Positions 8,644 through 59,508 of a stretch of DNA of 64,000 nucleotides are shown piece by piece. The translations under genes were made by a program, and so were the position numbers. Under the pieces are notes generated by a model. It did no database searches and was not told the origin of the DNA. It saw only the letters and a list, made by a program, of their open reading frames with translations. Position 1 is the first letter of the stretch. Every line of letters begins with the position of its first letter. This DNA comes from Loxodes magnus. Taxonomy: Eukaryota; Ciliophora; Karyorelictea; Loxodida; Loxodidae. The DNA lies in the NCBI GenBank assembly GCA_946699065.1, contig CAMPDV010000204.1, positions 62,001 to 126,000 of the forward strand, read 5' to 3'.

Positions 8644-10293
8644 TCATATGCATATGCATTCCCATTTCTAACTTTTCACATCTAATATGGATAATTTAGA
8701 ACTACGATCGTAGAAATAAATTTTATCTATAATAAATAATGGTAAGACATCTACATTATCTTTTTAGTTTTTATATCCTACTTATCTCAATTTTCCATTC
8801 TCTAATATGTTCACACTTTTTAAATTTGAATTATCATCTATTATATATATACTTTTATTCACTAGAACAGAAAGAGTATGAGAAACCTGAGGTAATTAAA
8901 TAAGCATTTTATTTCATATATCTTAAGTTATGTCATATTATCAAATATTTTAAGAATAATTTTATCCATTTTGGCCTCCAAAATTATATAAAGTATCTCC
9001 TAGTATTATTGCACTTCCTGAATGTGATACTTCAGGAATATCTGCTATCCTTTAAGATTTTAATATGGTTATACTAAACACTTCGCAAGCCTTTAAATTC
9101 TATTCATTATATCCTGATATTATAAAGATTTTGTTTCTTTGCTTATCATAAGCTATGTTATGGTTACACCTCTCAATCAACATCTAAGCTTCTTAAATTT
9201 GATTATCCCATATAATAGAAACTCTTCTTTTATACTAGTTATTCTAAACACCTCCCGTGACTACTAGGGTTTCTTGATCTATTTATAACGCTCTAAAATA
9301 CATTCCAAAGTTCTAAGTATTAACCCTCAACTTTTCTCATTATTCCTTTTCAAGATTATATTTTACTATACTACTAGTACTTCCAATTGTAAAGAATAAG
9401 TTTCTAAACTGGTTAATATCTTTCAGTTAAATAAACTCTCTTAAATCATTTCTTATTCTCTAGATGTCTATCTCAAAGCTTATTTATCTCTCACTATATT
9501 TCTAGTAATTTATTTTATTAATCATATTTATGTCTTTTTCATATATCCAACCTTCACTTCATTATTGCATTTCTTTCAGTTTATGCTAAAGCTCTATAAC
9601 TTCAATTGGATTTTTAGGTAGTTAATTTTCTTCTACTGGCTCATTTTAATTTTCTTTAAACTGACTTTAAATTTCTTTTCATTTTTATGTTTTTTGGTCT
9701 ATTTCGTTTACAAGCTCTTCAGTTAATTCTTAGTGTTCATAGCAATAAAGGTTTTTTTTGTAGTTTATAAACTCAATAGTTAGCTCTGTCTGTTCTTTTA
9801 CGAATTTTTTGAACTCTTAGTCTTTAAGAATTAGTTCTTACCTTACTTGTTAGAATTTTTGGCAGTTACGTGAAATAATATTCTACTTCTATAAGATGCT
9901 TGCTAGAAGAGCTGGTATTTCGTTTAAGAAGCTTTAGTTAACTTCACTGATTTCTTCGATTTTATGATTAGGATGAGAGTTAGTTTATATGCACTTTTAG
10001 CAGATAAGCCTTTGATCATCAAAGCAGTAAAACTTATTAGACTGATTATGAAAAACGCAGACCTATCGAAGAGTTTCAATATCTTATACCAGTCTTTAGT
10101 TAATTTCTAATCTTATGGGATCTCCTTAAGTAGGTGAACCACAGTTTTTCAGAGGACAGACTATTCTTTTTTATTTCTGGAAGAGATCGAAACAGCATTT
10201 TTTGCATAAATGATGCTAGCATTATAGAATTTAAGGTTTATTTGCTTTAGAATTAAATAAAGAATCACACCTTGTACAATGAGTAGTTTGCAT
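8644..10293 (-). CDS. RING/B-box/coiled-coil/kelch protein K4 (TRIM-like)
   Basis: Start ATG is the complement of 10,291-10,293; the frame runs 550 codons to TGA at 8,644-8,646. With TAA/TAG as Gln it gives an N-terminal RING finger (CTRC, then C-x-H-x2-C-x2-C, then C-x4-C), a textbook B-box (C-x2-H-x7-C-x7-C-x2-C-x5-H-x2-H), a Gln-rich coiled coil, and kelch repeats with TGG and FGGQNG-type turns. This is the plan of RBCC/TRIM E3 ubiquitin ligases whose kelch propeller binds substrate; the function is inferred. It aligns end to end with K1 at 21,967 despite heavy divergence, with no net frameshift. Five internal TGAs occur (codons 205, 245, 319, 451, 460); those at 205, 245 and 460 match TGAs in K1. 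Expression is unproven. Confidence 0.75.
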
Positions 10294-11181
10294 TTAAATT
10301 CTAATGATATATAAAAATAAAAAAGAATTAATTAATTAAAATATTTTTGTCATTTAAGTCAGTTTTATAATTTTAATGTTATAAAGATTTGGCACTAAAC
10401 TAAGATCTTTTTTAAATACAAAAGTTTAGATTTTCAATTTCAGTAATTTTTAGTTTTTATAATTAAATTTTTTGTTCTATAAGTTTATGTTTTTGGTTAT
10501 AAAAAAACAAAGTTAGACTAATAAGCAAAATAGAATGCTTCAATTTAAAAAATTTAGTAAAATAGACGTAAAATTTTATTCTCAATCTTATATTTTTATT
10601 TTTACAAGAGAAATTATTTCTGCTTATTGAAAGTAAAGAAAAAGATAAAATTTTAGGCTTTTTAAAATTTTGAAAAAAGTATTTTAAATATATATCGTTT
10701 TAATTTAGTAATGCAAATGGGAGTTATACTTTAAAATAATAATTAATAAGTGTATTTTTAAGGCTTTAATGGTTAACTTAATAATTTAAAATAAAATTAA
10801 TTAATTCAAATTAAAAACTTTTTTTGGAAAATATAATGTTTCAATAAAAATTCATCATTATTAGCAAGCAGATACTCAGGTTCCATTGTTTAAAACAAAT
10901 TCACTTTCTAAGTTAATCACTTTTATAAAAGTGAGATTCTTCTTTCTTAGTTTTCATTATATGTTGGATAAAAGGTAGTAAGAACTTTTCAAATCTTCTT
11001 AAGGATTATCATGTTTTGTCTACAGTTTTTCCTGAAGTTTTACTACAGAAGTAAATTTTCTTCTTTTGTGCTTTTAATCTAATTTAAATTATTTTTTTCT
11101 AATGATATTTTACATGTATTTATAGAGTTTTTTATATTTATTGCAAAATTGATAAATAAATAATAATAAATAATTAAATGA
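10294..11181 (-). pseudogene. Region X copy 2
   Basis: Minus-strand copy of the X segment, lying upstream of K4. On the minus strand near 10,900-11,070 it reads a VVKLQEKLQTKHDNPQ-type peptide close to copy 1. After this the frame shifts relative to the other copies. Bases 10,294-10,850 are A/T-rich and could hold the K4 promoter, but I see no defined element. Confidence 0.4.
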
Positions 11182-11500
11182 GATTATAGAGCACGTAGCA
11201 CCTCAATGGTGCGCAGCTCTTTAATAAGTTTTTTAAAGTTGAAAAAAATTCGCTGCTGAAGTTTTCCACAGTACTAGCATTCCCTTAAGAGTTTTGCCTT
11301 CTATAGGACCATGATCGTAATGCTAACCTAAGAGACCTTAGTATCTGTCATCTTTCATCATTAATGCTACTTGATACCTCTTCGATCTTGTCTTCTCTTC
11401 TCTTGGCTCCTACCAAAATTTTTGTTTAGTTCTTCAACTATAAGGCACTTCTTGGTACCAGAGTTTAAGTTAGTTTCAGTTGGAGGATTGCTCCTCCCTA
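11182..11500 (-). repeat. SINE-like element A, copy 3
   Basis: Minus-strand copy with a clear tail at its left end (gattatagagcacgtagcac ... ggtgcgcagctcttt) and the head at its right end (ttggaggattgctcctccc). Confidence 0.8.
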
Positions 11501-11641
11501 TTTATTTTATAATAATATAATAATAAACTGAAGTTATTCTACCTTTCAAATAGAATCATCACTGTAAAGTTTATTAATTTCGTTAAATATTTCATTTCTA
11601 GTCTTCTTTTTTACATATCAAGCGGTAATGCGTTAACTTTT

Positions 11642-12625
11642 TTATTAAAAATATCTTACAAGAAAAAAAATGGAAGGTTTCAAAAAGGGTTTCTACACCA
11701 CCTTCTCGAAGAAGGAGAGGAAATCAGAAGCAAATCTCGAATAGTCTTCTTACATTTAATCTTTACCCTTTTCTTAATAATCTTAACAACCTGGAATATA
11801 ATATAGCTACGGAGAACAAAAACAAACTCAGAAAAGCACTCATATGCTTACTCCAACATTGGAAGAGAAGCCTATAAAACAGGAAAAGTCTGCTTTGCAC
11901 CAGGAGGTCTCAGAATTTAACCCTTCTGATCAGATGAGTATGGAACAGCTCATTAAAGTGCTACTAAACCTCCAGGAAGAGGTCAAAAAGCTAATGAAAG
12001 ACAATGAGAAGCTTATGCAGCAACTTAACTTAGCAGAAGGAATAAAGTCAAGACTCATGTCCTAGGAAAGAGAGCTAAGCACCTTTTGAAACATATCACA
12101 AAGTCAGAATAGCTAATTCTAAAATTAGCTTCAGAAACAGACTGAACTGAATAATAGACTCGGAAAAATAGAAGAGAAATTGTAAACATTAAAGAAAGAG
12201 CAAAGCGAAACTGGAGCTATAAAAATAGAAATCGAAGCCTAAAAAGAGCAAACCCTCTAAGGAAAATAATTAAAAATAAAAAAGAAATGTTTCTGCTGTT
12301 GAAGCGTATGACATCTTTATCAGAAGTTTTGGATATTTAATAGAAATAAAGAAACTATTGGATGAAAGAGCAGCAAAAAAAAGAAGTCAGATTGAAAAGA
12401 ATGCATTGTAACCGGAATGGTTCAATATACAAGATCAAGATGAAGCTAAGGCAAGTTAAAGGAGAGAAAACCTGGAGAAATCCGAGTTCCCAATCTCGCT
12501 AAATTGAGTCACCTAAACTTTTATATTTAACATCAGAGATCATGAACTGTTGTCCTTCTGATGGGGCTAAAAATCCCTAAAACAGAAAGTAAAAATTAAT
12601 ATTATTATTATTAAAAGTATCTTAC
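11642..12625 (+). mobile_element. Retrocopy-like insertion with 18-base target duplications
   Basis: The bases ttattaaaaatatcttac (11,642-11,659) and ttattaaaagtatcttac (12,608-12,625) flank the insert and differ at one position. The related LINE copies have this sequence once, at 27,191-27,208 and at about 53,705-53,725 reversed, which are unoccupied sites. The insert ends in an (ATT)n run. A target duplication of this length plus a simple-repeat 3' end fits target-primed reverse transcription by a LINE enzyme. Confidence 0.75.
11844..12535 (+). CDS. Unrecognised coiled-coil protein Cc1
   Basis: Starts at ATG 11,844 (MLTPTLEEKPIKQEK...). The first 73 codons are open under any code; reading TAG as Gln and TGA as Trp extends it. 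A motif around residues 33-45 (MSMEQLIKVLLN) opens a long Lys/Glu/Gln coiled coil. After about 12,270 the frame homologous to the second copy (near 18,560) continues one register over in an A-rich run, giving AYDIFIRSF and LQPEWFNIQDQ. So this copy has one likely frameshift. The first TGA (12,088-12,090) aligns with TGG in the second copy. It may be an ORF1-type protein or a retroposed host gene; no known domain was recognised. Confidence 0.5.
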
Positions 12626-13130
12626 TTCAGTCAAGCCGAATTCCAAACATATTATAATTTCTTCTTTGCTGAGCATGAGCAAAACCCATCAAGATTTCAC
12701 TCTCACTGTAATTTTTTTCCTGTTAAAATAAAACATACTTGAGGCGATATAAATTAACAAACAAAAATTATAATTATAAATTTTCTTCAAAAAGCTTTCG
12801 ATTGAACCATCAGCAACATATGAAGCATATCCAAATCTTCTGCAATAAGAATTGTTTTTTCTTTCATGTAAAAATTATTTCTGATTAATTCTTAGGCTTT
12901 AACAAAAAAATATCATTAATAGACATATTTTAAAGGAAATGCTTACTATCAGCTCTGAGAAATGATAGAAATTTGATTATTCCGGATCGATTTTGATCTC
13001 TACTGAGTAATTATTTTAAGTTTTCATTCTACTGAATAAGAAACTATCTGTGAAATTCCTTTTAGATCTTATACGTTAAAAAATAAAAATCCAATATTTT
13101 AGAAATTTAAGTTCTTAAAGTATAATATCA

Positions 13131-13729
13131 TAACGAATCAATAGAGATGTGAACTGTTTGAAATAAATTTGTAAAAAACTAACAATTTTTTATATAAAAT
13201 ATTTTATTAGCTTTTCTCCTTGATCTTGATTATTTTTGAAAAACTATAATATAAAAGATTAAATCAGTCTTTAAAAGAATTTCATCGAGTTCTTTTTAAG
13301 AGTCTTGATTTTTTTACAAAAAAAAATGTGTGATATTTTCAAAAAATAAATAAGAAAAACAACATAAAAAAAAATATTTTAAGAATAGATAAAAAAGAAA
13401 TATTTAAAGAAAATATTTAAAATACCTTAAAAATTATAAATAACTGAAAAATGCGAAAAAGTACAAAGTAGATTTTTATAAAATTTAATATATGCTTACT
13501 AATATAAATTCCGCAATAATTAAAAATTAAAGGAACATTTCTTTTTAAAAAAAAATAAGAAATTGAGTTTTTAAAACAAAATAAATAAAAGAAAAAAATA
13601 TAGCAAGTAAAAAAATATTCAAAATAGAAAGAAAAAAAAGGTGAAATAAACAAAAAAATAAAAAATGAAAAAAAAGCAAGCTAAATTTATTTGAAAAAAA
13701 ATCATACATAAAAAATGCCCAAGATCTAA
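13131..13729. other. Low-complexity A-rich stretch
   Basis: Purine-rich A runs with no gene-like features. The open frame on the minus strand at 13,417-13,653 is almost all Phe, Ile, Tyr and Lys and is a composition artefact. Confidence 0.5.
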
Positions 13730-14790
13730 GATCATAAAATTTTTTTAAATATAATTTTAATTAAACCCCATTAAACGTAAATGATAAACGCTAAAACGAT
13801 TTTAAAACATTTAAAAAACTATTTTTTTGGTTCTTTAGTTATAATTTGGAGATAAATATAATAAAATAGATAAAATTACAAAGATTAAAAAAGAAATTCA
13901 ATATTAAGAATATTCTTCAATTTTTAAATGAAAATGTAAACGGCTCTTCTTGAAAAAGATTAAAAATCTAAATTTTGTTCTAAAAAACATTATTTAAAAA
14001 GCTTAATATTTACTGTAGATAAAAAGTAATTTTCAAATAAAACTTAAATTTTTTCAACTTGCTATTGAAATAAAAAAAATAATAATAAATTTTACTTAAA
14101 AATAGAAAAAATTTTATAATGGAAATAAAGTAAAAAATTTTATCAAGATAAATGTTCAATTTAAAAATATTTTATTTATAATTTTTATTTCGAATAAAAA
14201 GTCATTAGATGTAAAATAAAAAAAATTCTTAAATCATCATAAATATTAAAATTTTTCCAGAAACTTTTTCATCTAAATATTCTTTAAGATTTATACTAAA
14301 ATACATAAATAACATTTTATAAAAGATCTTATTGAATTTAATAAAACTAGAGAATTATAAAGCATGTTAACAATTCTAAATTTTATATATAATAGAAAAT
14401 AATGTATCAAGTTTTGAATACTTATTATGCATTATATAACTCAATCAAAACTTTTAAATCTCTTTTAAGTAAAAAAATAAGTTTTTTTCTTTTCAAGTTT
14501 TTTAAATTTTAAGATCATAAAAATTTTTTATATATAGTTTTAATTAAACCGCATTAAACGTAAATGATAAACGCTAAAACGATTTTAAAACCTCATCTTA
14601 AACTACTTTTTATATTATTTAGTTATTATTTCGAGATTAATATAAACAAATAGTTAAAACTTATAAAGATAAGAAAGAAGAAATTTAATTTTATATTCTT
14701 TCATTTAAATGAAAGTGTAAACAGCTTTTCTTGAAAAAGATTAAAAATCTAAATTTTGTTCTACAAAATATTTATTTAAGCTTTAAACTA
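13730..14790. repeat. Tandem repeat E, array 1
   Basis: Two head-to-tail units about 784 bases apart (13,730 and 14,514); the second is partial. Each carries a core with TTTAATTAAACC, AAACGTAAATGATAAACGC and TAAAACGATTTTAAAAC, then a second block containing cttgaaaaagattaaaaatc. The same unit is found twice at 29.77-31.0 kb and twice, inverted, at 49.96-51.17 kb. Confidence 0.8.
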
Positions 14791-14859
14791 AAAGAGATTT
14801 TGTATTCTATAACTGCAAGATTCATTCCCTTCAGATATAGACATTAGTAAGTCTTTTTA

Positions 14860-17340
14860 ATTTTTTAATTTATTCTTGATCTCATCAATTTTTACTTACT
14901 CTTATAATAATCTCATCTTTCATTTTTTCCTTTTTTCTTTTTCTTTTTCTTTTTCTAATAATTATTTTCTTCTTGACAAAAATTTCTAATGAAGAATTTT
15001 TATTTATAAAGCTAAGGATTTCAAGTAAGACTTCTGAAAGGAGTATATAAATTCTTAGACTTTTAATAAAAAATGTCATAAATCATAATTCTCAATCTTT
15101 TACGGTATTCAATCTCTTATATCAGAATAGTATATAAATTTAAAAATGTGCTCAAACGTATCATACTCTCCACACATACAGTAAGGATTATAAATATAAT
15201 GGTGACAATCTTAAAGATCTTTTAGAAAACTATAGGATTGGGTTCCAAGTTTATATATATTGATAATTTCTTGTCAAATTCTTTGTTCAGCTTAGCTATT
15301 CTACTCAGTATATACTTTAGCTGTTTTCATTCTCTTATACTTTTGAGTATCTGTATTATAGAAATATTGTCGTATTTTGTCTCTTGTATATTTAGTAAAG
15401 GTTTTTTAATTTGTAATAATCTTGGAATTTTGTATATGATAATATAGAGGTCTGATAATTGCTGAACTTGATCATAGCATTGAAATTATTTTGTCCAGTT
15501 GGTAATAAAAGAGAGTTTATTGTCGATCTTGGAAAATCAATGATTTCTTATAAATAGGACTAATTCTTCAACAAACATTGACTTAAGATCTGGAAATACC
15601 CATGGGAGAAGAACCGAACAAGAATCTTGGTAGGAGTAAAGAGAGAAGACAAAGAATAAAAGACATAAAGTAGCATAATTGATGAAAGATGACAGATACT
15701 AAGGTCTCTTAGGGAGCATTCTGGTCACGCTCTATAGAAGACGAGACTCACAAAAGATGCTAGCACTGTGGAAGACTTCAGAAAAAAATTGTGGACATTA
15801 AAAATCTTTATTAAAGAGCTGCGATCCATTGAAGGGTTACGCGCTCTCTAATCTTATTTATTTATTTGATTCATTTTATAGTAGAATCTGAAGAATCTCA
15901 TAGCCATAATGTACTTCAAAGGTAATCAATTCAGATCTATATATAATGATTCATTAAATGTTGAAGTTGCTACTTAAAAACATTTCCTTGAAATCAATCT
16001 CATGCTTGATTCAATTCTGTTCAGAACAATAATAACTCCTTTTTGAATACTTCATGGTACCAGTCTCCTCCATATTCTGCTTCAAGTAATGTAAAATGTC
16101 TACATAAAGTTTTAAAATGTCAAGGGGTTATATTCTTATATCTCATCAGTTAAAAAACAGCTTTCTTTAATGCAACTGTATATTTGAATGCGACTTCTTT
16201 GCAATAGGGATTAAAATTCTTCTTTTTATGTAGAATAACTCCTAAATATGTTACTTGCTCTTTTTAAGCAATTGGTTAATTTTCTAATCATAAATTTAAG
16301 ATTTATTATTTATGATTTTTCTTTAGGAATTAGATACATTCAGATTTTGTAACATTGATCTTTAAATGAGTTCATGCAAAAACTCTAATTGTTTCATTTA
16401 TTAGATTCTATATCTACTGCGCAGATTTGGAAAGAAGAATCAAATCAACTATCCATCCTCTACAAGCAAAGCTAACACTAAAGCCCTGGCATTTGAATCT
16501 TGATTGGGTACTTTTACTTTCCATATATCGAATTACAATGTCATAATACAACAATGCTAAAGCTGGTCCAGTTGAACTTTCTTACATAACTAAATTGTTT
16601 TATTATAATGTTCTAGTGTTCATTTCATCTATGATAAAAAAAGAGTTCAGGCTTTTGTAAATCGATTCTAAGGCTTTTATTAGTCCAAATAGTAGTTTTA
16701 CTCTCTTAAGCTAATAAAATAAAAGTATTTTTCTATTGAGTAAACAATATCTATCAATATTGCGATCAATTTAGTTTTCACTTTTGCACATTTCCGATAG
16801 TTATTAATTTTCAATTATATCACCCAAATTTATTAAGTAGTTTATCTATTTTCATGAATCCCATTTGAAAAGGATGAATCAAATTTCTCTAATAAATCAT
16901 ATTGCAAAGTCTTTTAGTCAAAGCTTTATCATATAGTTTTAGAATAGTATTAATAAGAGAAATAATTCTTCAGTTTTTCCAATCATCTCTATTTCCCCTT
17001 TTAAATATTGAAATTATTACTGAAGCATTTAATTCTTAATGAATCCTTCTCAGTTTTAACATATTATTTAGAAATGAGTGAACAATTAATTATCAAGAAA
17101 TAATAGTCAATTATAATCTATTAAGCAGGCTAGTTTATTTTACCCTTAATGATGCTAAAAAATAATGCTCTCTTATATATTTTGATTGATTTATTTTATT
17201 ACTTTTAGGGAATAAGTAACATATCTTCTAGTATATAGATTTAGCACTTTATATTTCTAGAGTACTGTATTTAAATGTATTAAAATAGTTCTATGTTTAT
17301 TTCTATTTTAGTTGCTAGTTTTTACTTAGGGGATATTCTT
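14860..17340 (-). mobile_element. LINE copy L3 with a nested element A
   Basis: Minus-strand LINE. Near 15,130-15,190 it encodes a C-terminal zinc finger (C-x-C-G...H-I-F) like that of the fuller copy at 42.6 kb. Reading upstream, 15,554-15,853 is an inserted element A, and reverse transcriptase-like sequence resumes at 15,870-17,340, including the D-L-N-[TGA]-L-P block at 15,926-15,928. Much diverged and broken. The run of CTTTTT near 14,925-14,957 lies at its 3' side. Confidence 0.65.
15555..15853 (+). repeat. SINE-like element A, copy 4, nested in L3
   Basis: Carries the A body and a good tail (gagctgcgatccattgaagg...gcgctctctaatc) followed by ttatttatttattt. It splits two parts of one LINE, so it inserted after that LINE. 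Confidence 0.75.
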
Positions 17341-17500
17341 TAATGTTTATAGCAGAAAGTAAAAATATAATATCTATTAATTATCATATTTAAACTAATA
17401 TTCTATCTAAAGAGGTAGAGATGCTTAATTAGCTTAAGATATAAAAGATTTATAAAGTTATTATTTTTAGTTTAATGATTAACTTAAAAATTTACTCTTT

Positions 17501-17786
17501 TGAAGGATTGGAAACTTCTTTCGATCCAGGGCACTCTCTTGTTGCACATAACGCGGATATCATGTTGCTTAATTGAATAAACTTCTGCTAGGGAGTTCCG
17601 TAACTATAGGTAGGAAAGTTTCAAACCACTAGCAAGAGTGGATAGCCAGAAAGATTTTTCTCGTTTGCTGAGATTGGCTCTAACCAGGGACCTTCTCAGT
17701 GACAAGATAGGAACTTGACCTTATTCATAATTCTAGAAGATTTTATCAGAAAATCAACCTCATCTCCTTCCATTTTTTTATTATAT
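17501..17786 (+). repeat. Dispersed repeat C, copy 2
   Basis: Same body as the copies at 3,374 and 41,170, beginning tgaaggattggaaacttctt and ending in ccatttttttattatat. Confidence 0.7.
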
Positions 17787-18559
17787 AAAGTTATTATATT
17801 CAACATATATTTAATAATTAAATTAGAACTAAAAAGAAAAATATAAATTTCTTTCTTAAGTACTAAAATATTGACTTTATAGCTTATAAAAATTTTTAAT
17901 TAGCTATTGAATCTTCTTCAATTATTTTCTATCTATAGTAGGATTTTTATCTAAACAGATAGAATTAAAAATAAACATTTGATGATAAAAATAACTTTAA
18001 AAAAGGAAAATTTTATAATTTTATTTATTTTAGTAATCTTAAAAGATAAATATACTCTTTAGCTATATCTAAAATTCTAAGTGAAAGACTTATTTTAAAT
18101 GATTAATTTTTATTTTTCTTCTTAACTTATTATTTCCCAAAGTGTAACTTAATGATTTATAGTTATTAAATTTATTATACTTTAAAATACTATATCATAT
18201 TAGAAACATTTCAAACCTAACATTTTAATAATTAACTAAACTTTTAACTCCTTTCTCTTTAAAATAGGCATTAAAGTTAGTTTTCCTATACTTTAGATAA
18301 AAATAGTAAACTAGATATCATAAACTTATTTACTTTATGTAGGCTGCTAATTTTTAAGATTATTAAACATTATTTAGATTACAAGTTTCATCTGTTATTT
18401 AGTATTACTAACAATAGATTATTTAATTGAAAATAAATATAAAAATTATATAGCAATTTAGAAAGGGATTTTTAGCTGCTTCAAGAAAGTAGGAGCATGG
18501 ATGTAGTAGAACGAAGAGGAGATTAAAAAACTGCAGAAAAAGATTTATTATGCAATAAA
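17787..18559. other. A/T-rich region
   Basis: No gene or repeat recognised, apart from the probable leader of the coiled-coil remnant after about 18,460. Confidence 0.5.
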
Positions 18560-19161
18560 ATGTCTACAGAGGAAGAGAAACTGAGAAAATAAACGAAGGT
18601 TATTTTATACCAGGAGGTCTCAGAATTAAATCCTTCTGGAAAGATGAGCATGGAACAGCTCATCAAAGTAGTGTGAAACTTCTGGTAGAGGTTAAGAAGT
18701 TCTACAAGGAAAATATACAGCTAACAAAGTAGATCAATCTCGGAATTAAAGATAAGCTTGATTTAAGAATAACGAATCAGGAGAGGGAGATTGACAGCTT
18801 ATGGGTTTACCAGCGAGAGTTGCTCAGCCAAGCAAACTCCTAAGTATAGAAGATTAAAGACTAAAACAAGAAGATTAAAGAATCTTATAGAGTTAGACGA
18901 GCCACTAAAAGTTGCAAAACCTTCTAGATCACAATATGGACTCTGAAGTGCAAGGATCATAAAAGATTAGGCAACGAGAAAAAGAGTTTGAAAATAATGC
19001 TATTTTTGTAATAGCATTTGATACTTGTACATGAATTGTCCGAAGTTTCAAAACTTTCAAAAAAAAAATTGCATCCAAGAGAATAAATTCTTTGCAATAA
19101 GAATGGAGAAATCTATAGAAGAAAATGGAATAACAAATACAAGGAGGCAAGAAATATATGA
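18560..19161 (+). pseudogene. Second copy of the coiled-coil family, Cc2
   Basis: Begins at ATG 18,560 (MSTEEEKLRKQTK...) and shares QEVSELNPS and KMSMEQLIKV with Cc1. A one-base deletion relative to Cc1 follows, near 18,675; the coiled coil continues in the next register with NQEREIDSLW, then later NNAIFVIAFD and NSLQQEWRNLQKK, which match the C-terminal part of Cc1. The LW tryptophan is TGG where Cc1 has TGA. Broken copy; no target duplication was noticed. Confidence 0.55.
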
Positions 19162-20645
19162 GTAAAATAAGACTTTCCAGATCGAGGGTTTATAGATTTA
19201 CAAATATATTTTAAACGGCGGTAATATTCTCTGCTAAACAATTTTAATCTTAAGAAATAAAAATAAATAATTTTAAATACTTAATAAAAAAACTATATTT
19301 ATCTAAATTTTTATATACTATATTCTGGGGTTATTTTATACCAAGATACTATTTTTTAATATACACAGAACAAGACAGATCCGACAAATCGAAATTTAAG
19401 AATTCTAACATGAAGCAACAACAGACCTAAAGAGGTTGTTCCAGAAGGAGACTGAAAAAAATGCTTGTTGATAGGTAACTAGGGAGAAAATAATTCAATA
19501 GCAAACTGAATTACCTTTCATTTCATAAGAAAATTAATTAAATATTTATAAGATTTTAATTTTTGTCTTTTTCCTTAAAATTTTAGTTTTGATAGTTAGA
19601 TTTTTATTTATAAATTTATTAATATAAACCATATTAAAAATTAATCTTTGATGGTCCTATTTAAAAATATCTAAAATTTTAAAATTTAGTTTAAATTAAT
19701 TTAATGTCTTATAAAATAAAATTATACAAGACTTCAAGAAATTTTCGTATCAACTCAAAGCAAGAAAAAAATTATAAGCTGCTCTTCTTAAGGTATCTTC
19801 TTTGTTTTTGTTATCTTAACCTTTTTAGAATCATTAACTGACTACAAGGAAAAAAAATGGAAAACAGTTTATATAGTAATTAATTGCATAAGTTCCTTTA
19901 TAAAAGATAAAAAAGTTCCAACGTAGTTCTACAACAGAAAAATAGTGCCAAGCAAGGAAAAATAATGGCTTAAGGGAGCATCATCAGTAAGTTAAATACA
20001 AATGATTCTCTATAGGACTTTACATAAGAAAAACATTTGGAATGAACTTAAAGCCAACAAATTAAACCTTTTTGAGACTAATAAAACTTGTTATTAACTT
20101 AAAATGCAACGGAAATATCTAAATAAAAGCATCTAAACTAATTTATTGACGAAGATTAAACATATGCTGCTTTAACTCTTTTGAAATATAGAATAAAAAG
20201 ATAGAAGTGCTATGTTACAATTTATGATTAATGACTCGTAAGAAAAAAAGCTTTTATACAGATATAAAGAAATCAAAATGAAAAAGAACTTTTAAAGAAA
20301 TAGATACAATTCTGTATTAATAAACTCAACAATACCAACTCTAAAAGGTCAATTAAAATATTCCAGTTGAGGTTAAATTATAAAACTCAAAAAGCAGGTA
20401 ATAATCAAGAACCAAGAAGAAAGGCAATTCTTATAATTTGGAAAAGTACCTAGCGAAACTTTTACAACTTTTGTGAATATAAGAAAATGCAAGATAATAT
20501 ACTTGGAAGGAGTTGGCGAGATTCTGACTAATGTATTGCAACTATGGTTTGTAGACAAAGAAATTTATATAAAAAAATATTGAACTAAAATAATTGTCCA
20601 CCTTTTTATGATAGAGCTATTTTATTAAATATTATATAATAAAAT
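19162..20645. other. A/T-rich region with coiled-coil and gene-like remnants
   Basis: At about 19,360-19,530 a short coiled-coil stretch (RQIRQIEIQEF, then TTDLKRLFQKETEKN) is readable on the plus strand. From about 19,857 codon usage looks protein-like, and near 20,470-20,570 one frame matches the remnant at 4.67 kb (VNIRKCKIIYLE). With all stop codons potentially sense, openness alone proves nothing, so I call only a remnant. Confidence 0.3.
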
Positions 20646-21047
20646 GGATGTTAGCAACGTCCAGGAGAGCTAGTGGATAATCTGGGGCAGTTTATATGAC
20701 ATTACGAGTAATCACGAACTAAATGCTACCACGGGAAGAGTGAACAAGCTCGGAAAAGACAAGCCTAACTTGCCCGAGGATTCTCTCTAGCAGTATGAAA
20801 GTTTGACTGATGAACCTTCTAATTAATGACTTAATAACTAATTCTTATTTGAATCTTATTCAAAAAGACTGGAGCATTTGATTCAAGATTCGAGAATAAT
20901 CTTTAATAAGTAGATTTTAATTTGAAGAAGCTGATGTGACTAATTGGCCTTTTAGAATTTTAGCAAGAAGTATGAGAACATTTTTTTAATATTAAATATT
21001 AATATTGAAAGATCTGTGCGTAACAAGATGCTTCGCGCTCTATAATC
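20646..21047 (+). repeat. SINE-like element B, copy 1
   Basis: About 400-base repeat with a head like gtccaggagagctagtggat and the shared tail gatctgtgcg...gcttcgcgctctataatc. Its body is unrelated to element A, but the tail is the same. Four copies are present, here upstream of kelch gene K1. Confidence 0.8.
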
Positions 21048-21966
21048 ATCATTATTTATTTAAGATAACTTAATAAATTTGAATATCGTATAACTTAATT
21101 TAATAAGTAAGAAAAATTAAAGCATCTAAAAAGATAAATGTATTAAATAATCTTTAAATTTTAAATAATTATTACAATATATATTTGAAATTAACTTTTA
21201 AAATAAACTTATAATTTATATATAACATAATCTTATTTTTCAAAATAAAAATTTGGAGAAACAATCTTAACCATTAAATCTGAAGCAAAGATGATTATTT
21301 GAAAAAAATTTCCTTTTGTTAGTTAATTTTCTATTTATTATATTATATATATTATTGCATATCTAAATTTTATTCAAACTCAATCAACATTTTTCCTCAT
21401 ATTTATAATTTTAACAGAGTAAATTTTAATAACTTTTATTCTTTTTAATTTCTAAATATTTTCACATATTTAAATTTTTTATAACAATTTTAACTCTTAA
21501 AATCTCTAATGATTCAAATGTAATATTTATAAACTATTTTTTGGCATTTTTAGATATTTTATAGATTAGGAGTTATTCTAAAAGATTCACATTAGTATTT
21601 AGGTATATTAATTTTCTATTTTATATCTAGTTTTATTAAATATTTTCATGATTTATTTAATAATTTTTGAATAATCTCTCAAAAATTAAATTTAACGATA
21701 ATCTTAATATCGTTTTATTTAGATATTGCAATTCCGTCCTAGATTTTTAATTTTTTGATTAAATTTTACAAAAAATATTATTTAATAGCGAATATGATAG
21801 TTATTATGTCAGATGATTTAATATAAAAATTTATTATTTAAGATATATAAAACAAATTTATATTTATGGTTTAACTTAAAATTAATTTTTCTTTGAGCGA
21901 AAATATCTAAATAATAAATTATTATAGAATTTATTATTTTTATATTAAAGCAAAATTAAAAAAATA
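21048..21966. other. A/T-rich leader region of K1
   Basis: Non-coding sequence between element B and K1, matching 34,715-35,624 with many small differences and indels. It probably contains the promoter and 5' untranslated region. No defined element can be named. Confidence 0.5.
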
Positions 21967-23604
21967 ATGTAGTCAGAATTTAACTGTCCTAAATGCAATA
22001 TCTAGTTCAACTATAAGGCTAATGTACCTTAAATTCTTCAATGTAGACATAACTTGTGTAAAAAATGTTGCTTTGAGTTGTTTTAAAAATAATAAAAAAT
22101 AACTTGCCATGTTCAAAATTGTGGCTAGTAAACTTTAGATGATCCTTTAGATCTTGAAGTTAATAATGATTTAATAAATAGAATGAAATAAAACGCATCG
22201 AATAATTGCAAAACTCATTAAAGGTAAATCACTTACTACTGTTTTGATGATTTATAATTTTTATGTTAGAAATGTATTGAAACTAATCCTCATACAAATC
22301 ATAAAGTTAAAGAAATATTTGAAACTTAATAAGAACTTAAAACTTAAATTCCTTAATATATCTAAAATATAAAAGAGAAGTAAAATATAATATAGAGTAA
22401 CTGTTAATAAATTTAGTAAATAAGATAATAAATCATAATAAAAGATTAGGAATTTAAATAGTTTATTTAATAAAAAGCAGAATAAGCTATTGAGTTAATA
22501 AATAATAAAAGAAACTTTTATTACTAGGAACATTAAGAATTAACTGATGAGTTATTAAAGGAGATAGATAAAAGATGTTAGAATTGATAAGAAATTTAAA
22601 ATAAATTAAGAGAATAAAATATTCAAGTTTCAAATAATCCTATAGAAGTAATTGAACTTTAGTAAAAACTATAAGATATTTTAAAATGAGGAGAAGATTA
22701 AATATAGCAAAAAGAGATATAATAGATAAACTAAATAAAGTTTAATGAATATAATAAAGTATAAATAAATTTCTAGATAGATGTTTAGCAGTTTCACAAA
22801 GATTTGCAAACTATAATTAAAAAAGGAAACTTAAACGAGTTTAAGATTCTTTTATTTGCAGTTAATGATACAAATATTATAGTGAAATATAACGTTGAAA
22901 AGGGAACTTCTGAAAAAAATCAAGTAAATACTTAGATTTTTTCAATCCATTATAGAGCATTATAAATAGCAGAAGATACTTTAGTAGTTACAGGTGGATG
23001 TGTAAATAGCACACATAGTAATAGAATATCAATAATAAAAGATACTAAAGTTTAAGAATATCAAATGATTATTTTAAGAAGAGGTCACAGTTTAGCATTT
23101 GATAAACATAGAAATTAACTACTTATAATATCTGGCTATAATGGTTAATATTTAAAGGAAAGCGAAGTGTTTAATTTGAAAACTTTAAAATCTTCAAAAA
23201 TAGCTGATATACCAGAAGCTTCTAATATGTGTAGTGCAGTAATATTTAATGATATTTTATATAATTTTGGAGGATATAATGGTTCAAAATATTCGTAGAG
23301 TATATAACAATATGAAATAAATAATGATAGATGATCTAAACTATAAATTTAACTACCTCAAGGTTCTTACACTCTTTCAGTTTTTGTTAATAAATAAATT
23401 TATATTTTTGATAATAATAGTAACTTAACTTAAGTCAAAATTTTAGAAAATGGAAAATTAACTTAAGTAGGATAAAAATACTTAAATAATTATGTATCAA
23501 CAATTCCACTTTGTAAAAACAACTAAATTTATTTTTACGATGATGGTTTAAAATTATCATTATTTGATGTGTAGAGTTTAAAGTGGGAAAATAAAAATAT
23601 TTGA
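21967..23604 (+). CDS. RING/B-box/coiled-coil/kelch protein K1 (TRIM-like)
   Basis: ATG at 21,967 to TGA at 23,602-23,604, 546 codons in one frame. Residues 7-52 form a RING finger (C7-x2-C10, C26-x-H28-x2-C31-x2-C34, C47-x4-C52). Residues 81-112 form a B-box (C81-x2-H84-x7-C92-x7-C100-x2-C103-x5-H109-x2-H112). A Gln/Lys/Glu coiled coil follows to about 320. Kelch repeats fill the C-terminus, with GG at 343-344, SGYNG from 389 and FGGYNG at 434-439. RBCC proteins are typically E3 ubiquitin ligases that self-associate through the coil and bind targets through the C-terminal domain. Dozens of TAA/TAG codons must be Gln. In-frame TGA occurs at codons 207, 241 and 456; codon 456 is the conserved Trp of a kelch blade (NDR-TGA-SKL). 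The TGA at the end aligns with the TGA that ends K4. Confidence 0.8.
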
Positions 23605-24425
23605 AAACTAAAATAAACGATTTTAATATAATATTAATCTTAATATTTTTTACATTAATTTACTCATTATATGTATATATATTTTTTAAATAAAAGTATT
23701 TTAATATTATATATATGTAGATACTTTTAACTTTCAAAAATTTTTTATTTTTTCTTAGACTAAAAATTAGTTTTATAATTGAATATAAAAGATAAATTTT
23801 AATTGATGCATTCAGATATATTTCAAACTCTTCCATCAACCTAGAAAAGTTTTTCGGAGGTTATGTAAAGATTTTAATTTTTTTTATCAGATCTTGACTA
23901 ATTCTCTTTTTTTATGTTCTATTTTACAGTATTACTATGTTTTTTCCCAATAATTATACTAGTTTCATTCTAATTTCTCATGTTACTTCTTATCCTTTTA
24001 TTAGTAATTATAGCTAATATTTGAAACTTCTAATATTTTTGTAGTTTTATGAATTGCAATAGAAGCAACTTTTCTCTCATAGTTTTACTTTTTCAAACTT
24101 TATTTTTTTATTTTCCTTCTATCACTTCTAAAATCTTGCGTTTGTCATTTTTGCTATTTCCGAACTATCTTCTCTATTCTTTCAACTTACTATCTGTTTC
24201 AAGTTTTAGTTTATATATTTACTATTTAGCTTTATAACATTATATGCTTTTAAATCTTCTTCTGTGAAATGATTCTGAATCCATTTCTTCATGCTTATTA
24301 AGATTTTCAATTGTTTAGCGTTATTCTTCTTAAATCTTTTGATATTTTCTTGTAAGAATAAGATATTATATAAAATGGTGCCTTAATATTAGCAGATCTC
24401 TTCTTCAAAACCTATTCCTAGTAGG
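23605..24425. other. Spacer between K1 and the ORF1-like remnant
   Basis: A/T-rich, almost identical to 37,263-38,085 and similar, inverted, to 57,051-57,870. A 62-codon open frame at 24,049 is Phe/Leu-rich and on the wrong strand for anything recognisable. The spacer holds the presumed K1 3' untranslated region. Confidence 0.5.
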
Positions 24426-25050
24426 ATGAATCCAATAATCTCTACCTTCTTAGATGGAGAATTAAAATTTGACAAAGGCAATCATTGGACTTAATGAACG
24501 AATTTAAGAACTGACCAACACTATGGAAATTCTAAAATCTGAAAACTCAATTTTAAGTTAGAAGATAGACTTAAACCTGTCCCTGTAAATTTAAGGAAGA
24601 ATCTCATAGAAAAAATAGATCGTAAAGGAAATTTAAAGCTCTAGAAATTCTAAACCAGAAAAACTATAGTATCTCAGCTATCCAATGGATATAGAACAAC
24701 AATCGATAGCATAAGGGGTTCCATATCAAAAAGTAGTATATGTTGGTATTGCAAACAGTCAGAGCATAAAGATGGAACTGCTGCAAATTTAATAAAATAG
24801 AAGAAAATAATATAAAATAAATGGAAAGATATATTTTAAATATACTGTATAAGTTAAAGCTAGCTTTATCGGAAAAAAATGCTTTAGCTTGACGAATAAG
24901 CTCATTATATCTAATAAGCAGTCAATTAAATAGAAATTAATAAGATTTAACATATCGGAAAAAATTAAGAAGAATAATCTTCAAATTTTCAAGATTCATG
25001 ACAGTGAAGATCCAAGTCAATTTGAGGTGAACATTAATTTAAAAAAAACT
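24426..25050 (+). pseudogene. ORF1/Gag-like remnant, copy 1
   Basis: A coiled-coil stretch (LTNTMEILKSENSIL) is followed near 24,741 by a CWYCKQSEH zinc-knuckle-like motif, as in nucleic-acid-binding ORF1 or Gag proteins. The order coil then CCHC knuckle fits a retroelement. It is broken. Related copies lie at 38,086 and, inverted, at 56,400-57,050. Whether it came from a LINE or another retroelement cannot be told here. Confidence 0.4.
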
Positions 25051-25360: not shown

Positions 25361-26718
25361 TTTTAAATTATATACAATATATTAATTTGTGGTAAACTAA
25401 GCAAAGATAATATCATAATAAATTATGCTATTTTATGTTAGTGATATTTAAATTGTTTTGTCAAAACTTACCAATAAGTTTTATTACATTCAGAAACCTC
25501 TTAATACAATCATTAATTAATCTATTTTATAGGTTTTAATTTAGAGTTTGAGTTACAATTAATACATAGCAACCATCTGATTATTTTACATTTCTAAGAT
25601 TATAAAATTTTCATGTGCATCTACTTCTTAGAAATTAATAAAAATCATTTTTATAATCCTCGATATCATTTTTTTATTTGCTATAATAATAAGATAATCA
25701 TTAATAATCGCTTTTATAAAAAAGTTTATTCCAGATAGATAAATTATTTTAAATGATATATATTAAATATATTAAATATATTAAATAAAAAATCATTTTA
25801 TCTAAGTTTGATTATTAGAATAATATCTTGCACATTATTTTCTCAGATATCAACTATCATCTTTAAAAAAAGAAATATTTAGATGCTCTATTTTATATCC
25901 ATATATCATATTGGAAGCTATGCTAATTCAAATGTAAAAAAAGAAGGAAATATTTGAAAAAAATGTCTTAGATTATTAATTTTTTACTAACTAATAAATA
26001 AAATAATGTAAAATTATAAAGCAAGGAATGGCTGAAAAAGATTTACTATTTGCATAAATTCTTGAATGTTAAGAAAATATTTCGAAATAAGTATGATTGC
26101 TAAGCATTAAAATAATATTAATCTAAAAAGGAAATTATTATGCTTTTATGATACCATAAGTTTATCCTTTTTTACAAGAGAAATTATTTCTGCTTATTGA
26201 AATTAAAAAAATAATTTATTTAAAGCTTAAAAAACATCCCGAAAAGAGAATTTAAAATCCATATCAGTTTAATTTAGCAGAGCAATTGGGAATTATACTT
26301 TAAAATAATAATTAATAAGTGTATTTTTAAGGTTTTAACGATTAATTTCTATAATTTAAAATAAAATTAACTAATTCAAATTAAAAGCTTTTTTGGAAAA
26401 TATAATGTTAAATTAATCACTATTAGCGAGCAGATACTCAGATTCCATTGTTTAAAAAGTTCACTTTCTAAATTAATCACTTTATATGCGAGATTCTTCT
26501 TTCTTAGTTTTCCATTATATGTTAGATAAAAAATAGTAAGAATTCTCCAAACCTTTTTAAGGATTATCATGTTTTTTCTACAGTTTTTCTTGAAGTTCTA
26601 CTATAGATGTAGTTTTTTCTTTGGTGCTTGCAAATTAATTTACACTATTACTTTTCTAATGGAATTTTACATGTATTTATATAGTTTTTTTTTTGCAAAA
26701 TTGATAAATAATTAATGA
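25361..26718 (-). pseudogene. Region X copy 3
   Basis: Longest copy of X on the minus strand; the conserved peptide lies at about 26,400-26,630 with NIQWK written TGG. The left part (25,400-26,350) is A/T-rich and matches 54,970-56,040 inverted and 39,040-39,800 directly. Confidence 0.4.
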
Positions 26719-27029
26719 GATTATAGAGCGCGTAGCACTCTTGATGGTGCGCAGCTCTTTAAATTAATTTTATTTCAAGCTAATAAAATTTCTCTTTGGA
26801 AGTTTCCTCCAGTGCTTCACTCCTTTGGAAATTCTGTCTTCTATTAGGGCATGGTCAGAGTGATGCCCCAAGAAATCTAATCGTCTGGCATCTTTCAACA
26901 ACCGTTATTCAATGCCTCCAGTTTTTTTCCTCTTGGCTCCTACCAAGATTCTTGGTCAGTTTTCCGCTCCTGAAGTACTTCCTGGTACTATGCATTAAGT
27001 TAATCTCAGTTGGAGGGTTGCTTCTCCAT
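26719..27029 (-). repeat. SINE-like element A, copy 6
   Basis: Well-preserved copy with tail gattatagagcgcgtagcac...ggtgcgcagctcttt at the left and head ttggagggttgcttctcc at the right. Nearly identical to copy 1 in its body. Confidence 0.85.
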
Positions 27030-27035
27030 TTTTAA

Positions 27036-33480: not shown

Positions 33481-34319
33481 TTTTAGTAGTAATATTTGCT
33501 ATGAAATCAAAAAATATAATTTTAATTTATTTTTATCAAACTAATATTCTTAAATAATATCACCTTTTGGAAAAAACGAAAGTTTTTATTAAATGAATAC
33601 AAAAATTAAAGTTTAAAAGAGATTAAATAAATTATTTAAGAGATTTAGTTATTAAAATATGATTTATCATAGCTTTAATAAATAAGCAGATAAGTTATAA
33701 ATATTTAAAGCTATGAAAATAAATTAGGAATAAAATTAAGTTTCATAAATTCTAACCATCTAATTATATTATTATTTACTTTTAAAATTTATTTGTTTTG
33801 CTAATTTAATTTTTTGTCTTATAAAAATGCTTTTTATTTTAGATGCTTTAAATCATTAAATTCATAATTTCTATTTTAATTTAAATTAAATAGGTGGTAA
33901 GCTCTTTCTTTTAGGAGTTACTTTGAGGTTCAGCAAAATTATTAGAATTGAGCGCTACTGGAGGATAAATTTTAGTAAAGCAATTCTATGTCGCAAGAGA
34001 TTTTCTTTGTAGGCCTCTCCAGGCTCAAGAACTCTAAATACCAGTAGTAATCTTATTTCATTATTGGTAGGAATATATTTACCCACAATCAACTATCTTT
34101 CTATGTGGTCATTTAATAATTTTAGATTTAAACATTTTTATTATCATAAATCTTTTTTTGCGAATCTTATTTAAATTTTCAAAAGGAACAATTAAAGTAT
34201 CTTCTGAAATTTATCTATTGTAAAAGGCTAACTCTTACTATATCCAAGTATTTTTTTCCTTTAAACTATAATTTGGATATATTCTGTCAAATTTTTATTA
34301 TGCTTATTATTACAAAAAT
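33481..34319. other. Region between L5 and element B
   Basis: A/T-rich to about 33,890, then a moderately complex 400-base patch that recurs inverted at 60,780-61,160. No protein family recognised on either strand; it may be the 5' end of the LINE. Confidence 0.35.
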
Positions 34320-35624: not shown

Positions 35625-37262
35625 ATGTAGTCAGAATTTAACTGTCCTAAATGCAATATCTAGTTCAACTATAAGGCTAATGTACCTTAGATTCTTCAAT
35701 GTAGACATAACTTGTGTAAAAAATGTTGCTTTGAGTTGTTTTAAAAATAATAAAAAATAACTTGCCATGTTCAAAATTGTGGCTAGTAAACTTTAGATGA
35801 TCCTTTAGATCTTGAAGTTAATAATGATTTAATAAATAGAATGAAATAAAACGCATCGAATAATTGCAAAACTCATTAAAGGTAAATCACTTACTACTGT
35901 TTTGATGATTTATAATTTTTATGTTAGAAATGTATTGAAACTAATCCTCATACAAATCATAAAGTTAAAGAAATATTTGAAACTTAATAAGAACTTAAAA
36001 CTTAAATTCCTTAATATATCTAAAATATAAAAGAGAAGTAAAATATAATATAGAGTAACTGTTAATAAATTTAGTAAATAAGATAATAAATCATAATAAA
36101 AGATTAGGAATTTAAATAGTTTATTTAATAAGAAGCAGAATAAGCTATTGAGTTAATAAATAATAAAAGAAACTTTTATTACTAGGAACATTAAGAATTA
36201 ACTGATGAGTTATTAAAGGAGATAGATAAAAGATGTTAGAATTGATAAGAAATTTAAAATAAATTAAGAGAATAAAATATTCAAGTTTCAAATAATCCTA
36301 TAGAAGTAATTGAGCTTTAGTAAAAACTATAAGATATTTTAAAATGAGGAGAAGATTAAATATAGCAAAAAGAGATATAATAGATAAACTAAATAAAGTT
36401 TAATGAATATAATAAAGTATAAATAAATTTCTAGATAGATGTTTAGCAGTTTCACAAAGATTTGCAAACTATAATTAAAAAAGGAAACTTAAACGAGTTT
36501 AAGATTCTTTTATTTGCAGTTAATGATACAAATATTATAGTGAAATATAACGTTGAAAAGGGAACTTCTGAAAAAATTCAAGTAAATACTTAGATTTTTT
36601 CAATCCATTATAGAGCATTATAAATAGCAGAAGATACTTTAGTAGTTACAGGTGGATGTGCAAATAGCACACATAGTAATAGAATATCAATAATAAAAGA
36701 TACTAAAGTTTAAGAATATCAAATGATTATTCCAAGAAGAGGTCACAGTTTAGCATTTGATAAACATAGAAATTAACTACTTATAATATCTGGCTATAAT
36801 GGTTAATATTTAAAGGAAAGCGAAGTGTTTAATTTGAAAACTTTAAAATCTTCAAAAATAGCTGATATACCAGAAGCTTCTAATATGGGCAGTGCAGTAA
36901 TATTTAATGATATTTTATATAATTTTGGAGGATATAATGGTTCAAAATATTCGTAGAGTATATAGCAATATGAAATAAATAATGATAGATGATCTAAACT
37001 ATAAATTTAACTACCTCAAGGTTCTTACACTCTTTCAGTTTTTGTTAATAAATAAATTTATATTTTTGATAATAATAATAACTTAACTTAAGTCAAAATT
37101 TTAGAAAATGGAAAATTAACTTAAGTAGGATAAAAATACTTAAATAATTATGTATCAACAATTCCACTTTGTAAAAACAACTAAATTTATTTTTACGATG
37201 ATGGTTTAAAATTATCGTTATTTGATGTGTAGAGTTTAAAGTGGGAAAATAAAAATATTTGA
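35625..37262 (+). CDS. RING/B-box/coiled-coil/kelch protein K2 (TRIM-like)
   Basis: ATG at 35,625 to TGA at 37,260-37,262; exactly the same length as K1 (546 codons) with all RING and B-box residues kept. I count only about a dozen base differences from K1. Two are TAA/TAG swaps (35,688-35,690 and 36,963-36,965), which are silent only if both codons mean Gln. A few are amino acid changes, such as Val to Ala just after TGGC, Leu to Pro before RRGH, and Cys to Gly before SAVIF. The three internal TGAs are at the same codons. Role as for K1: a probable E3 ligase with a kelch substrate-binding domain. A recent duplicate of, or converted by, K1. Confidence 0.8.
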
Positions 37263-38715: not shown

Positions 38716-38716
38716 A

Positions 38717-42240: not shown

Positions 42241-42429
42241 GAATATTGAGACATAGTTGCAATAAATATAGCTTAGACTATAAATATTAAAAATATGCTG
42301 AAAGATAAAAGTTTGTAAATTTCAATCATTTCTTCTTGTTCTTTCACTATCATATATTTTTATTTATTTTCTTGATTAAATTTTTCTTTTTTTCCCTCTA
42401 GAAAATCTTCTAATAATTCATCTTGTAGT

Positions 42430-54380: not shown

Positions 54381-54403
54381 AATTTATTTATTTATTTATT
54401 TTG

Positions 54404-57870: not shown

Positions 57871-59508
57871 TAAAATATTTTTATTTTCCCACTTTAAACT
57901 CTTCACATCGAATAATGATAATTTTAAACCATCATCGTAAAAATAAATTTAGTTGTTTTTACAAAGTGGAATTGTAGATACATAATTTTTTTAGTATTTT
58001 TATCCTACTTAAGTTAATTTTCCATTTTCTAAAATGTTTACTTGCGTTAAACTACTTGCATTATCAAAAATATAAATTTACTTATTAACAACGACTGAAA
58101 GAGTGTAAGAAGCTTGAGGTAATTAAATTTATAGTTTAGATCATCTATCATTATTTATTTCATATTGCTATATACTTTATAAATAATTTTAACCATTAGA
58201 TCCTCCAAAATTATATAAAATATCATTAAATATTACTGCACTACCAAAGTAATAAGTTTCTGGTATATCAGCTATTTTTTAAGATTTTTAATTAATCAAA
58301 TTAAACACTTCACTTTCCTTTAAGAATTAACCATTATAACCAGAAATAATAAATAGTTAATTTCTTTGTTTATCAAATGCTAAACTGTGACCATATCTCT
58401 AAGTAATCATTTAATATTCTTTAACTTAAGAATCTTTTATTATTGATATTCTATTACTATATGTGCTACTTACATATCCACCTGTAACTGCTAAAGTATC
58501 TTCAGCTATTTATAATGCTCTATAATAAGTTGAAAAAATCTAAGTATTTACTTATATTTTTTCAGAATTTCCTTTTTCAACGTTATATTTCACTATACTA
58601 TTTGTATTATTAACTGCAAATAAAAGAATTTTAAACTCGTTTAAGTTTCCTTTTTAAATTATAGTTTGCAAATCTTTGTGAAACTGCTAAACATCTATCT
58701 AGAAATTTATTTATATTTTATTATATTAATTAAACTTTATTTAGTTTATCTATTATATCTCTTTTTGCTATATTTAATCTTCTCCTCATTTTAAAATATC
58801 TTATAGTTTTTACTAAAGTTCAATTACTTCTATAGGATTATTTGAAAGTTATACATTTTATTCTCTTAATTTATTTTAAATTTCTTATCAATTCTAACAT
58901 CTTTTATCTATCTCTTTTAGTAACTCATCAGTTAGTTCTTAATGTTCCTAGTAATAAAAGTTTCTTTTATTGTTTATTAACTCAATAGCTTATTCTGCTT
59001 TTTATTAAATAAACTATTTAAATTCCTAATCTTTTATTATGATTTATTATCTTATTTACTAAATTTATTAACAGTTACTCTATATTATATTTTACTTCTC
59101 TTTTATATTTTAGATATATTAAGGAATTTAAGTTTTAAGTTCTTATTAAGTTTCAAATATTTCTTTAACTTTATGATTTGTATGATAATTAGTTTCAATA
59201 CATTTCTAACATAAAAGCTATAAATCATCAAAACAATAGAAAGTGATTTACCTAGAATGATGTTTGCAATTACTTGATGTGTTTTAATTAATTCTAATTA
59301 TTAAATCCTTATTAACTTCAAGATCTAAAAGATCATCTAAAGTTTACTAACCGCATTTTTACACATGGCAAGTTATTTTTTGTTGTTTTTAATAAAATTC
59401 AAAGCAACATTTTTTACATAAGTTGTGTCTACATTGAAGAATCTAAGGTACATTAGCCTTATAGTTGAACTAAATATTGCATTTAGGACAGTTAAATTCT
59501 GACTACAT
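57871..59508 (-). CDS. RING/B-box/coiled-coil/kelch protein K3 (TRIM-like), terminator altered
   Basis: Start ATG is the complement of 59,506-59,508. The distance to the last homologous codon is identical to K1 (545 codons), so no net frameshift has built up. RING and B-box residues are kept (for example tgccatgtgtaaaaatgc still gives C-x4-C). The three internal TGAs are at the same codons, 207 (58,888-58,890), 241 (58,786-58,788) and 456 (58,141-58,143). The terminal TGA of K1, K2 and K4 is TTA here (57,871-57,873), so the frame would run about 95 codons further to the next TGA. Either it has a longer C-terminus or it has recently become a pseudogene. Same likely ligase role as K1. Confidence 0.7.

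Follow-up and report, generated by a model that had tools for sequence, protein, structure and literature searches.

A family of kelch genes with in-frame TGA codons

The stretch of DNA analyzed here, 64 kb in length and referred to as the window, has a G+C content of 16-31% (in 2-kb steps) and contains no closed open reading frame (ORF) of 150 codons under the bacterial code. Once TAA and TAG are read as glutamine, four long frames of a single gene family stand out, each with TGA codons in frame, and the sense of those TGA codons is the subject of this report. The four genes are as follows.

K1, 21967..23604, + strand: RING-like/B-box/coiled-coil/kelch gene, 545 codons plus a terminal TGA (frame and alignment, Pfam)
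K2, 35625..37262, + strand: copy of K1, different at 12/1638 sites
K3, 57871..59508, - strand: copy of K1, different at 116/1638 sites; last codon TTA, not TGA
K4, 8644..10293, - strand: diverged paralog, its protein ~52% identical to that of K1; 549 codons plus a terminal TGA

Repeated blocks of DNA, some of them inverted, carry K1, K2, and K3 (units A, B, and C, respectively), and the G+C content is 21.7% in K1 and 27.2% in K4. A codon-usage scan places eight segments above threshold, these being the four kelch genes, a glutamine-rich piece at 45934-47133, and three weaker segments.

K1 matches the Pfam families zf-B_box (3.5e-9) and Kelch_1 (9.9e-11), and in both K1 and K4 the B-box and kelch domains score above the Pfam cut-offs, as in TRIM-like RING/B-box/coiled-coil proteins and in kelch proteins; the B-box reaches 37.1 bits against a cut-off of 24.1. 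The K genes differ from such proteins in that their RING-like finger lies below its cut-off (RING_UBOX, 15.1 bits against 25.2) and in that no orthologue was identified; no relatives were confirmed in viral_contigs or genome_contigs. The solved structures that match K1 are kelch chains and TRIM72, with KLHL12 also among the solved relatives. When ligand positions are placed by the RING and B-box zinc-ligand pattern, the eight RING-type and eight B-box positions are invariant in all four copies, and helices are predicted at residues 114-215 and 226-286, in a poor structural model (mean predicted local distance difference test score 43.2, four sequences). The simplest reading is that each copy encodes one protein of ~545 residues with a RING-like zinc finger, a B-box, a coiled coil, and kelch blades; the architecture may be TRIM-like, and the protein would likely act as a ubiquitin-ligase scaffold.

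The TGA codons in these frames, together with the one TGG codon near the 3′ end of K1, lie at the following positions.

K1 codon 207, 22585..22587, + strand: in-frame TGA, coiled-coil region; TGA in 4/4 copies
K1 codon 241, 22687..22689, + strand: in-frame TGA, coiled-coil region; TGA in 4/4 copies
K1 codon 456, 23332..23334, + strand: in-frame TGA, conserved tryptophan of a kelch blade; TGA in 4/4 copies
K1 codon 540, 23584..23586, + strand: TGG in 4/4 copies; the terminal TGA follows six codons later
K1 terminal TGA, 23602..23604, + strand: taken as the stop
K2 codon 207, 36243..36245, + strand: in-frame TGA
K2 codon 241, 36345..36347, + strand: in-frame TGA
K2 codon 456, 36990..36992, + strand: in-frame TGA
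K3 codon 207, 58888..58890, - strand: in-frame TGA
K3 codon 241, 58786..58788, - strand: in-frame TGA
K3 codon 456, 58141..58143, - strand: in-frame TGA
K4 codon 205, 9679..9681, - strand: in-frame TGA
K4 codon 245, 9559..9561, - strand: in-frame TGA
K4 codon 319, 9337..9339, - strand: private TGA at a kelch tryptophan place
K4 codon 451, 8941..8943, - strand: private TGA, preceding the YD of a blade
K4 codon 460, 8914..8916, - strand: in-frame TGA at a kelch tryptophan, aligned with K1 codon 456
K4 terminal TGA, 8644..8646, - strand: taken as the stop

An earlier reading of this DNA, made from the letters without database searches (the sequence-only reading), had given the start points of K1 and K4, a single frame for each, and TGA codons at 207, 241, and 456 of K1 aligned with 205, 245, and 460 of K4, and the alignment agrees with it on these points, as it does with the statement that K2 and K3 hold all three TGAs. 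NPIEVIEL plus ten residues is a correct anchor in both genes; the other anchor, a TGA eight or nine residues before QLPQ, had been miscounted, as in both K1 and K4 the TGA lies six residues before the first Q. Structure matches and kelch profile scores agree that K1 codon 456 is the tryptophan of a kelch blade, as had been proposed. At codons 319 and 451, two further in-frame TGAs of K4 that are missing from the sequence-only reading, K1 has a serine (TCT) and a glutamine (TAA), respectively. TGA makes up 3/545 codons in K1 and 5/549 in K4. Among K1-K4 pairs, counted both ways with the terminal codon left out, TGA faces TGA in six of eight cells and is thus kept as well as cysteine (26/35); the figure for glutamine is 60/132.

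K1 and K4 have four tryptophan columns in common, three of which are TGA in both genes while the fourth is TGG in all four copies. Sites with a G in the flanking DNA differ most often by an A, and a gene dying here would therefore turn TGG into TGA; by our own reckoning, independent TGG decay would match at three of the four shared columns by chance about once in four. The shared TGA columns are thus not decisive, and the case rests on selection after the TGAs arose.

Selection continues downstream of the shared TGA codons

The presence of three TGAs in K1, K2, and K3 makes these TGAs older than the split among the three copies. K1 and K2 have likely been joined by recent gene conversion and, with only 12 differences, are hardly independent copies; the comparisons below are those of K1 with K3 and with K4. 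A codon model with TGA as tryptophan, fitted to K1 and K3, gives a nonsynonymous to synonymous rate ratio (omega) of 0.226 over the whole gene (likelihood-ratio test statistic 40.0), 0.245 over codons 208-545 (p 8.6e-7), and 0.112 over codons 457-545, past the last internal TGA (p 1.7e-4). As a control, 18 fits of the same model to the flanks (three stretches, each read in all six frames) yield omega values of 0.49-1.31, with p <0.05 in two of the 18 and a largest test statistic of 8.4. On the reverse strand of the kelch gene, omega likewise differs from 1 in two frames (0.47 and 4.01), as it should in a mirror of the coding frame. Neutral simulation using the substitution spectrum of the flank itself points the same way: over the full gene, all 2000 runs exceed the nonsynonymous fraction that was observed, and past codon 456 p is 0.0035.

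Gaps are unevenly distributed as well. Between units A and C there are no gaps in the 1638 bp of the gene and 39 in 3653 aligned flank sites; at the flank rate 17.5 would be expected in the gene (Poisson P(0) 2.5e-8), and 10.9 in the 1017 bp after codon 207 (P(0) 1.9e-5). K1 and K3 thus kept evolving as a protein after the shared TGAs were in place.

For the deeper comparison, the codon-model omegas of K1-K4 and K3-K4 (codons 208-455 and 208-545) run to zero with runaway distances, a sign of saturation, and the Nei-Gojobori estimate is quoted for K1-K4: dN/dS is 0.194, with differences at codon positions 1, 2, and 3 numbering 185, 127, and 262. A dN/dS near 1, which the sequence-only reading had named as grounds for giving it up, is seen neither here nor in K1-K3. 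Its argument that decay of an ancestral pseudogene is hard to square with the kept frame holds as regards the frame and the selection tests; position sharing by itself is weak evidence against decay.

The substitutions between K1 and K3 are unevenly spread along the gene, with 6 silent changes in codons 117-283, 14.5 in codons 1-116, and 26.5 in codons 284-545. Midway along the gene, at 22315-22814, only 10 of 500 sites distinguish unit A from unit C. This quiet middle suggests gene conversion or unusual constraint, and the stretch past codon 456 lies outside it.

The residue probably encoded by TGA

We read TGA as each of ten residues in K1 and K4 and compared the kelch profile scores. For PF24681, the best-scoring kelch family, tryptophan leads in K4 with 52.2 bits, followed by tyrosine (42.2), phenylalanine (40.9), and cysteine (39.6), with the rest lower; in K1 it leads with 56.6 bits, the next being cysteine at 51.2. 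When K4 codon 451 alone is varied, tryptophan scores best of five residues tried, and with codon 319 alone a kelch family is listed only with tryptophan of the five, although weakly (E 0.083). The proposal that TGA means tryptophan inside the gene is therefore supported by the profile, by the K1-K3 omega, and by the K1-K4 dN/dS. At codons 207 and 241, in the coiled-coil region beyond the reach of the profile, tryptophan is assumed.

The assignment of TAA and TAG to glutamine is reflected in the K1/K4 alignment, where 7 of the 19 cells with CAA have TAA or TAG as the partner codon. A TAA also stands at the glutamine of GVLQG, a reverse transcriptase motif, in a long interspersed nuclear element (LINE) elsewhere in the window. 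The code is read here from one gene family: Pfam scans for other code-testing genes in 78 six-frame pieces (36 + 42, covering ~37.7 kb of the 64 kb, the remainder consisting of the kelch genes and, for the most part, further copies of DNA already covered) found one reverse transcriptase only, that of the LINE, which is decayed and frame-broken and thus useless for inferring the code.

The end of the gene and possible introns

Protein similarity between K1 and K4 stops at the terminal TGA, which supports a stop there; the DNA match stops 15 bases earlier. The aligned terminal TGA that had been noted in K1 and K4 is confirmed and is present in K2 as well, that is in three of four copies, which count as two independent ends since K1 and K2 are near-identical; K3 has TTA at this place. 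Downstream of the terminal TGA of K1 there is no further in-frame TGA within 98 codons. Over their final 20 codons K1 and K4 use TAG and TGG, and neither TAA nor TGA; of the glutamine and tryptophan codons, 0/4 are TAA or TGA there, against 84/141 elsewhere.

Past the terminal TGA, units A, B, and C agree at every one of the first ~76 bases (23605-23680), after which gaps set in. As a sequence feature this conserved stretch possibly fits a short 3′ untranslated region (UTR).

Short introns that remove the TGAs are disfavored, as no candidate span is common to K1 and K4 and there is none at codons 456/460. GT..AG spans in K1-K3 measure 15, 34, and 36 nt over codon 207 and 29, 32, and 35 nt over codon 241, and the 15-nt span over codon 207 would preserve the frame; in K4 there are spans of 37 nt over codon 205 and 31-39 nt over codon 319. 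No GT..AG span of 14-40 nt covers codon 456 in K1-K3, or codons 245, 451, and 460 in K4.

Interpretation of the in-frame TGA codons

We consider it very probable that TAA and TAG encode glutamine, that TGA encodes tryptophan within the message, and that a TGA near the 3′ end terminates translation, which is the behavior of NCBI table 27. Ribosomes would insert tryptophan at the internal TGAs, codons 207 and 241 included, and termination at TGA would hinge on closeness to the poly-A tail. A karyorelict ciliate is, in our judgment, the likeliest host, and most likely the code is one already described, with the K genes as another gene that uses it. Very few nuclear codes are known in which one codon has a sense meaning inside a gene and a stop meaning where the gene ends, and here a repeated family with diverged copies shows selection running through in-frame TGAs, with no need of transcripts. 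If the host is a Loxodes this adds one more gene for a known code, and otherwise it is a new case.

Several observations weigh against this interpretation. In AT-rich DNA the nonsense change most likely to arise by decay is TGG to TGA, and TGA at tryptophan places is thus expected in dying genes too; both private TGAs of K4 face residues other than tryptophan in K1; and TGA is commoner in K1 and K4 than the 0.120% of codons reported for Parduczia (PMC4967479). Midway along the gene the signal of selection weakens, with simulation p 0.033 for codons 208-455 of K1-K3, and codons 208-240, with four differences only, are uninformative (p 0.216). PF25210, a weak match in K4, scores lower with tryptophan (21.2 bits) than with arginine (22.2), phenylalanine (22.1), or leucine (22.0), all against a cut-off of 70. 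K3 lacks the terminal TGA, and the codon pattern at the 3′ end is weak (Fisher p 0.030) and was chosen after seeing the data.

We think it unlikely that the host is instead a non-karyorelict AT-rich ciliate (perhaps oligohymenophorean-like) with an unreported tryptophan/stop TGA, or that TGA is translated only in the genes of this repeated germline-type element.

We give little credence to the view that K1 and K4 are pseudogenes that decayed separately where TGA is a stop only, as in eliminated Tetrahymena germline DNA, with TGG becoming TGA in both. The surroundings are repeat-rich and include a decayed LINE, TGG to TGA is the decay expected, the sharing of columns has the roughly one-in-four chance given above, K3 has lost its end codon, and the G+C contents of K1 and K4 are below the 33.5% reported for coding sequence of Loxodes magnus (PMC11441545). 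However, the TGAs predate the split of K1, K2, and K3, and selection on both protein and frame continued afterwards, downstream of the TGAs too, and the omega of 0.112 after codon 456 disfavors decay.

Stop codon readthrough, or A-to-I editing of UGA to UGG in the mRNA, would leave TGA as a stop, with full protein made from a fraction of the message or in one life stage. The footprint of selection would then equal that of a reassigned TGA, and nothing here separates the two directly, but protein yield would suffer at every one of the three to five TGAs in a gene, and we see only a slim chance of this being correct. A C following the stop codon is the context favored in known readthrough and follows none of the internal TGAs, and we know of no UGA-to-UGG editing in ciliates. 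That TGA encodes another amino acid, such as cysteine (as in Euplotes) or selenocysteine, is barely credible even though the profile does not tell the residue at codons 207 and 241 in the coiled-coil region, as cysteine scores below tryptophan with PF24681 by 12.6 bits in K4 and 5.4 bits in K1, codon 319 of K4 shows a kelch family with tryptophan only, and TAA and TAG, both stops in Euplotes, are both sense in the K genes.

Comparison with known genetic codes

In Parduczia and Condylostoma, according to Swart and colleagues, glutamine is encoded by TAA and TAG and tryptophan by TGA, and translation terminates close to the end of the transcript (PMC4967479). The closest parallel to the K genes is NCBI table 27 (Parduczia, Loxodes magnus), in which TAA and TAG are glutamine, TGA is both tryptophan and the only stop, and TGA and TAA are depleted before the stop. 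Over the ~20 codons that precede the stop in L. magnus, depletion affects TGA and TAA used as sense codons and spares TAG, and the median 3′ UTR length is 41 bp (PMC11441545). Apart from the lower G+C of K1 and K4, the window differs in that 1-kb tandem arrays, which fill 231-359 Mb of the L. magnus assemblies, are absent from it in a TRF search (periods to 500).

In NCBI table 28, that of Condylostoma magnum, all three standard stops can be sense and TGA is tryptophan, as in the K genes (PMC4967479). C. magnum genes end at TAA and TAG also, whereas three of the four K copies end at a standard stop and all of these are TGA; by alignment none of the four ends at TAA or TAG, in what is a very small sample. 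Amoebophrya sp. ex Karlodinium veneficum likewise has all three stops within genes; UGA is likely read there, in the view of the authors, by a tRNA-Trp(CCA) whose anticodon stem has 4 bp (PMC12005148). Amoebophrya is, however, a syndinean dinoflagellate, and the Q-rich K protein looks ciliate-like in our judgment.

NCBI table 6 (Tetrahymena and others) is used by AT-rich genomes with TAA and TAG as glutamine and TGA as a stop only. The K genes depart from it in the purifying selection downstream of their shared in-frame TGAs, although this evidence is indirect. In the germline of T. thermophila, DNA elements make up most of the classified transposons, and non-LTR (long terminal repeat) elements account for 4.75% of repeated DNA (PMC5182062); the window differs in having no transposase domain at E 0.001 in the 78 pieces scanned. 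The window gave no tRNA match and no Rfam match, rRNA and other RNA families included.

Repeats and neighboring elements

The repeated blocks are extensive: 20815-27052 matches 54384-60660 in reverse orientation at 89%, and 20620-26153 matches 34293-39798 at 94%. Units A and B are near-identical across the kelch gene and ~1 kb downstream (22065-24564 against ~35723-38222), whereas the divergence between them is 9.6% upstream and 7.1% beyond that downstream part; the near-identical part is likely a gene conversion tract. DNA next to K4 (10599-11657) is ~77% like 26169-27206 near K1, with K4 and K1 in opposite orientations relative to it. Short tandem repeat arrays of 19 and 38 bp lie in inverted copies at 39873-39981 and 54213-54333.

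The decayed LINE (41400-45802, - strand) retains remains of an endonuclease and a reverse transcriptase in shifting frames, one of the two domains being below its cut-off (E 0.0033), and in addition to frame breaks one frame holds 15 TGAs over 1000 codons. One TGA precedes RPI, a place often occupied by tryptophan or tyrosine in other elements. Upstream of the endonuclease, the Q-rich frame at 45934-47133 (- strand) is coiled-coil-like with four TGAs, and is perhaps ORF1 of the LINE.

Neighboring copies of a ~180-bp AT-rich element with a AAACGCTAAAACGATTTTAAAAC-like core are kept in diverged units at 13727-14772 and 29821-30942; a pattern search for the exact 26-base core gave no matches in viral_contigs. 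Two related, decayed coding-like stretches at 11650-12470 and 18460-19180 have the motif MSMEQLIKV in common, as judged by eye.

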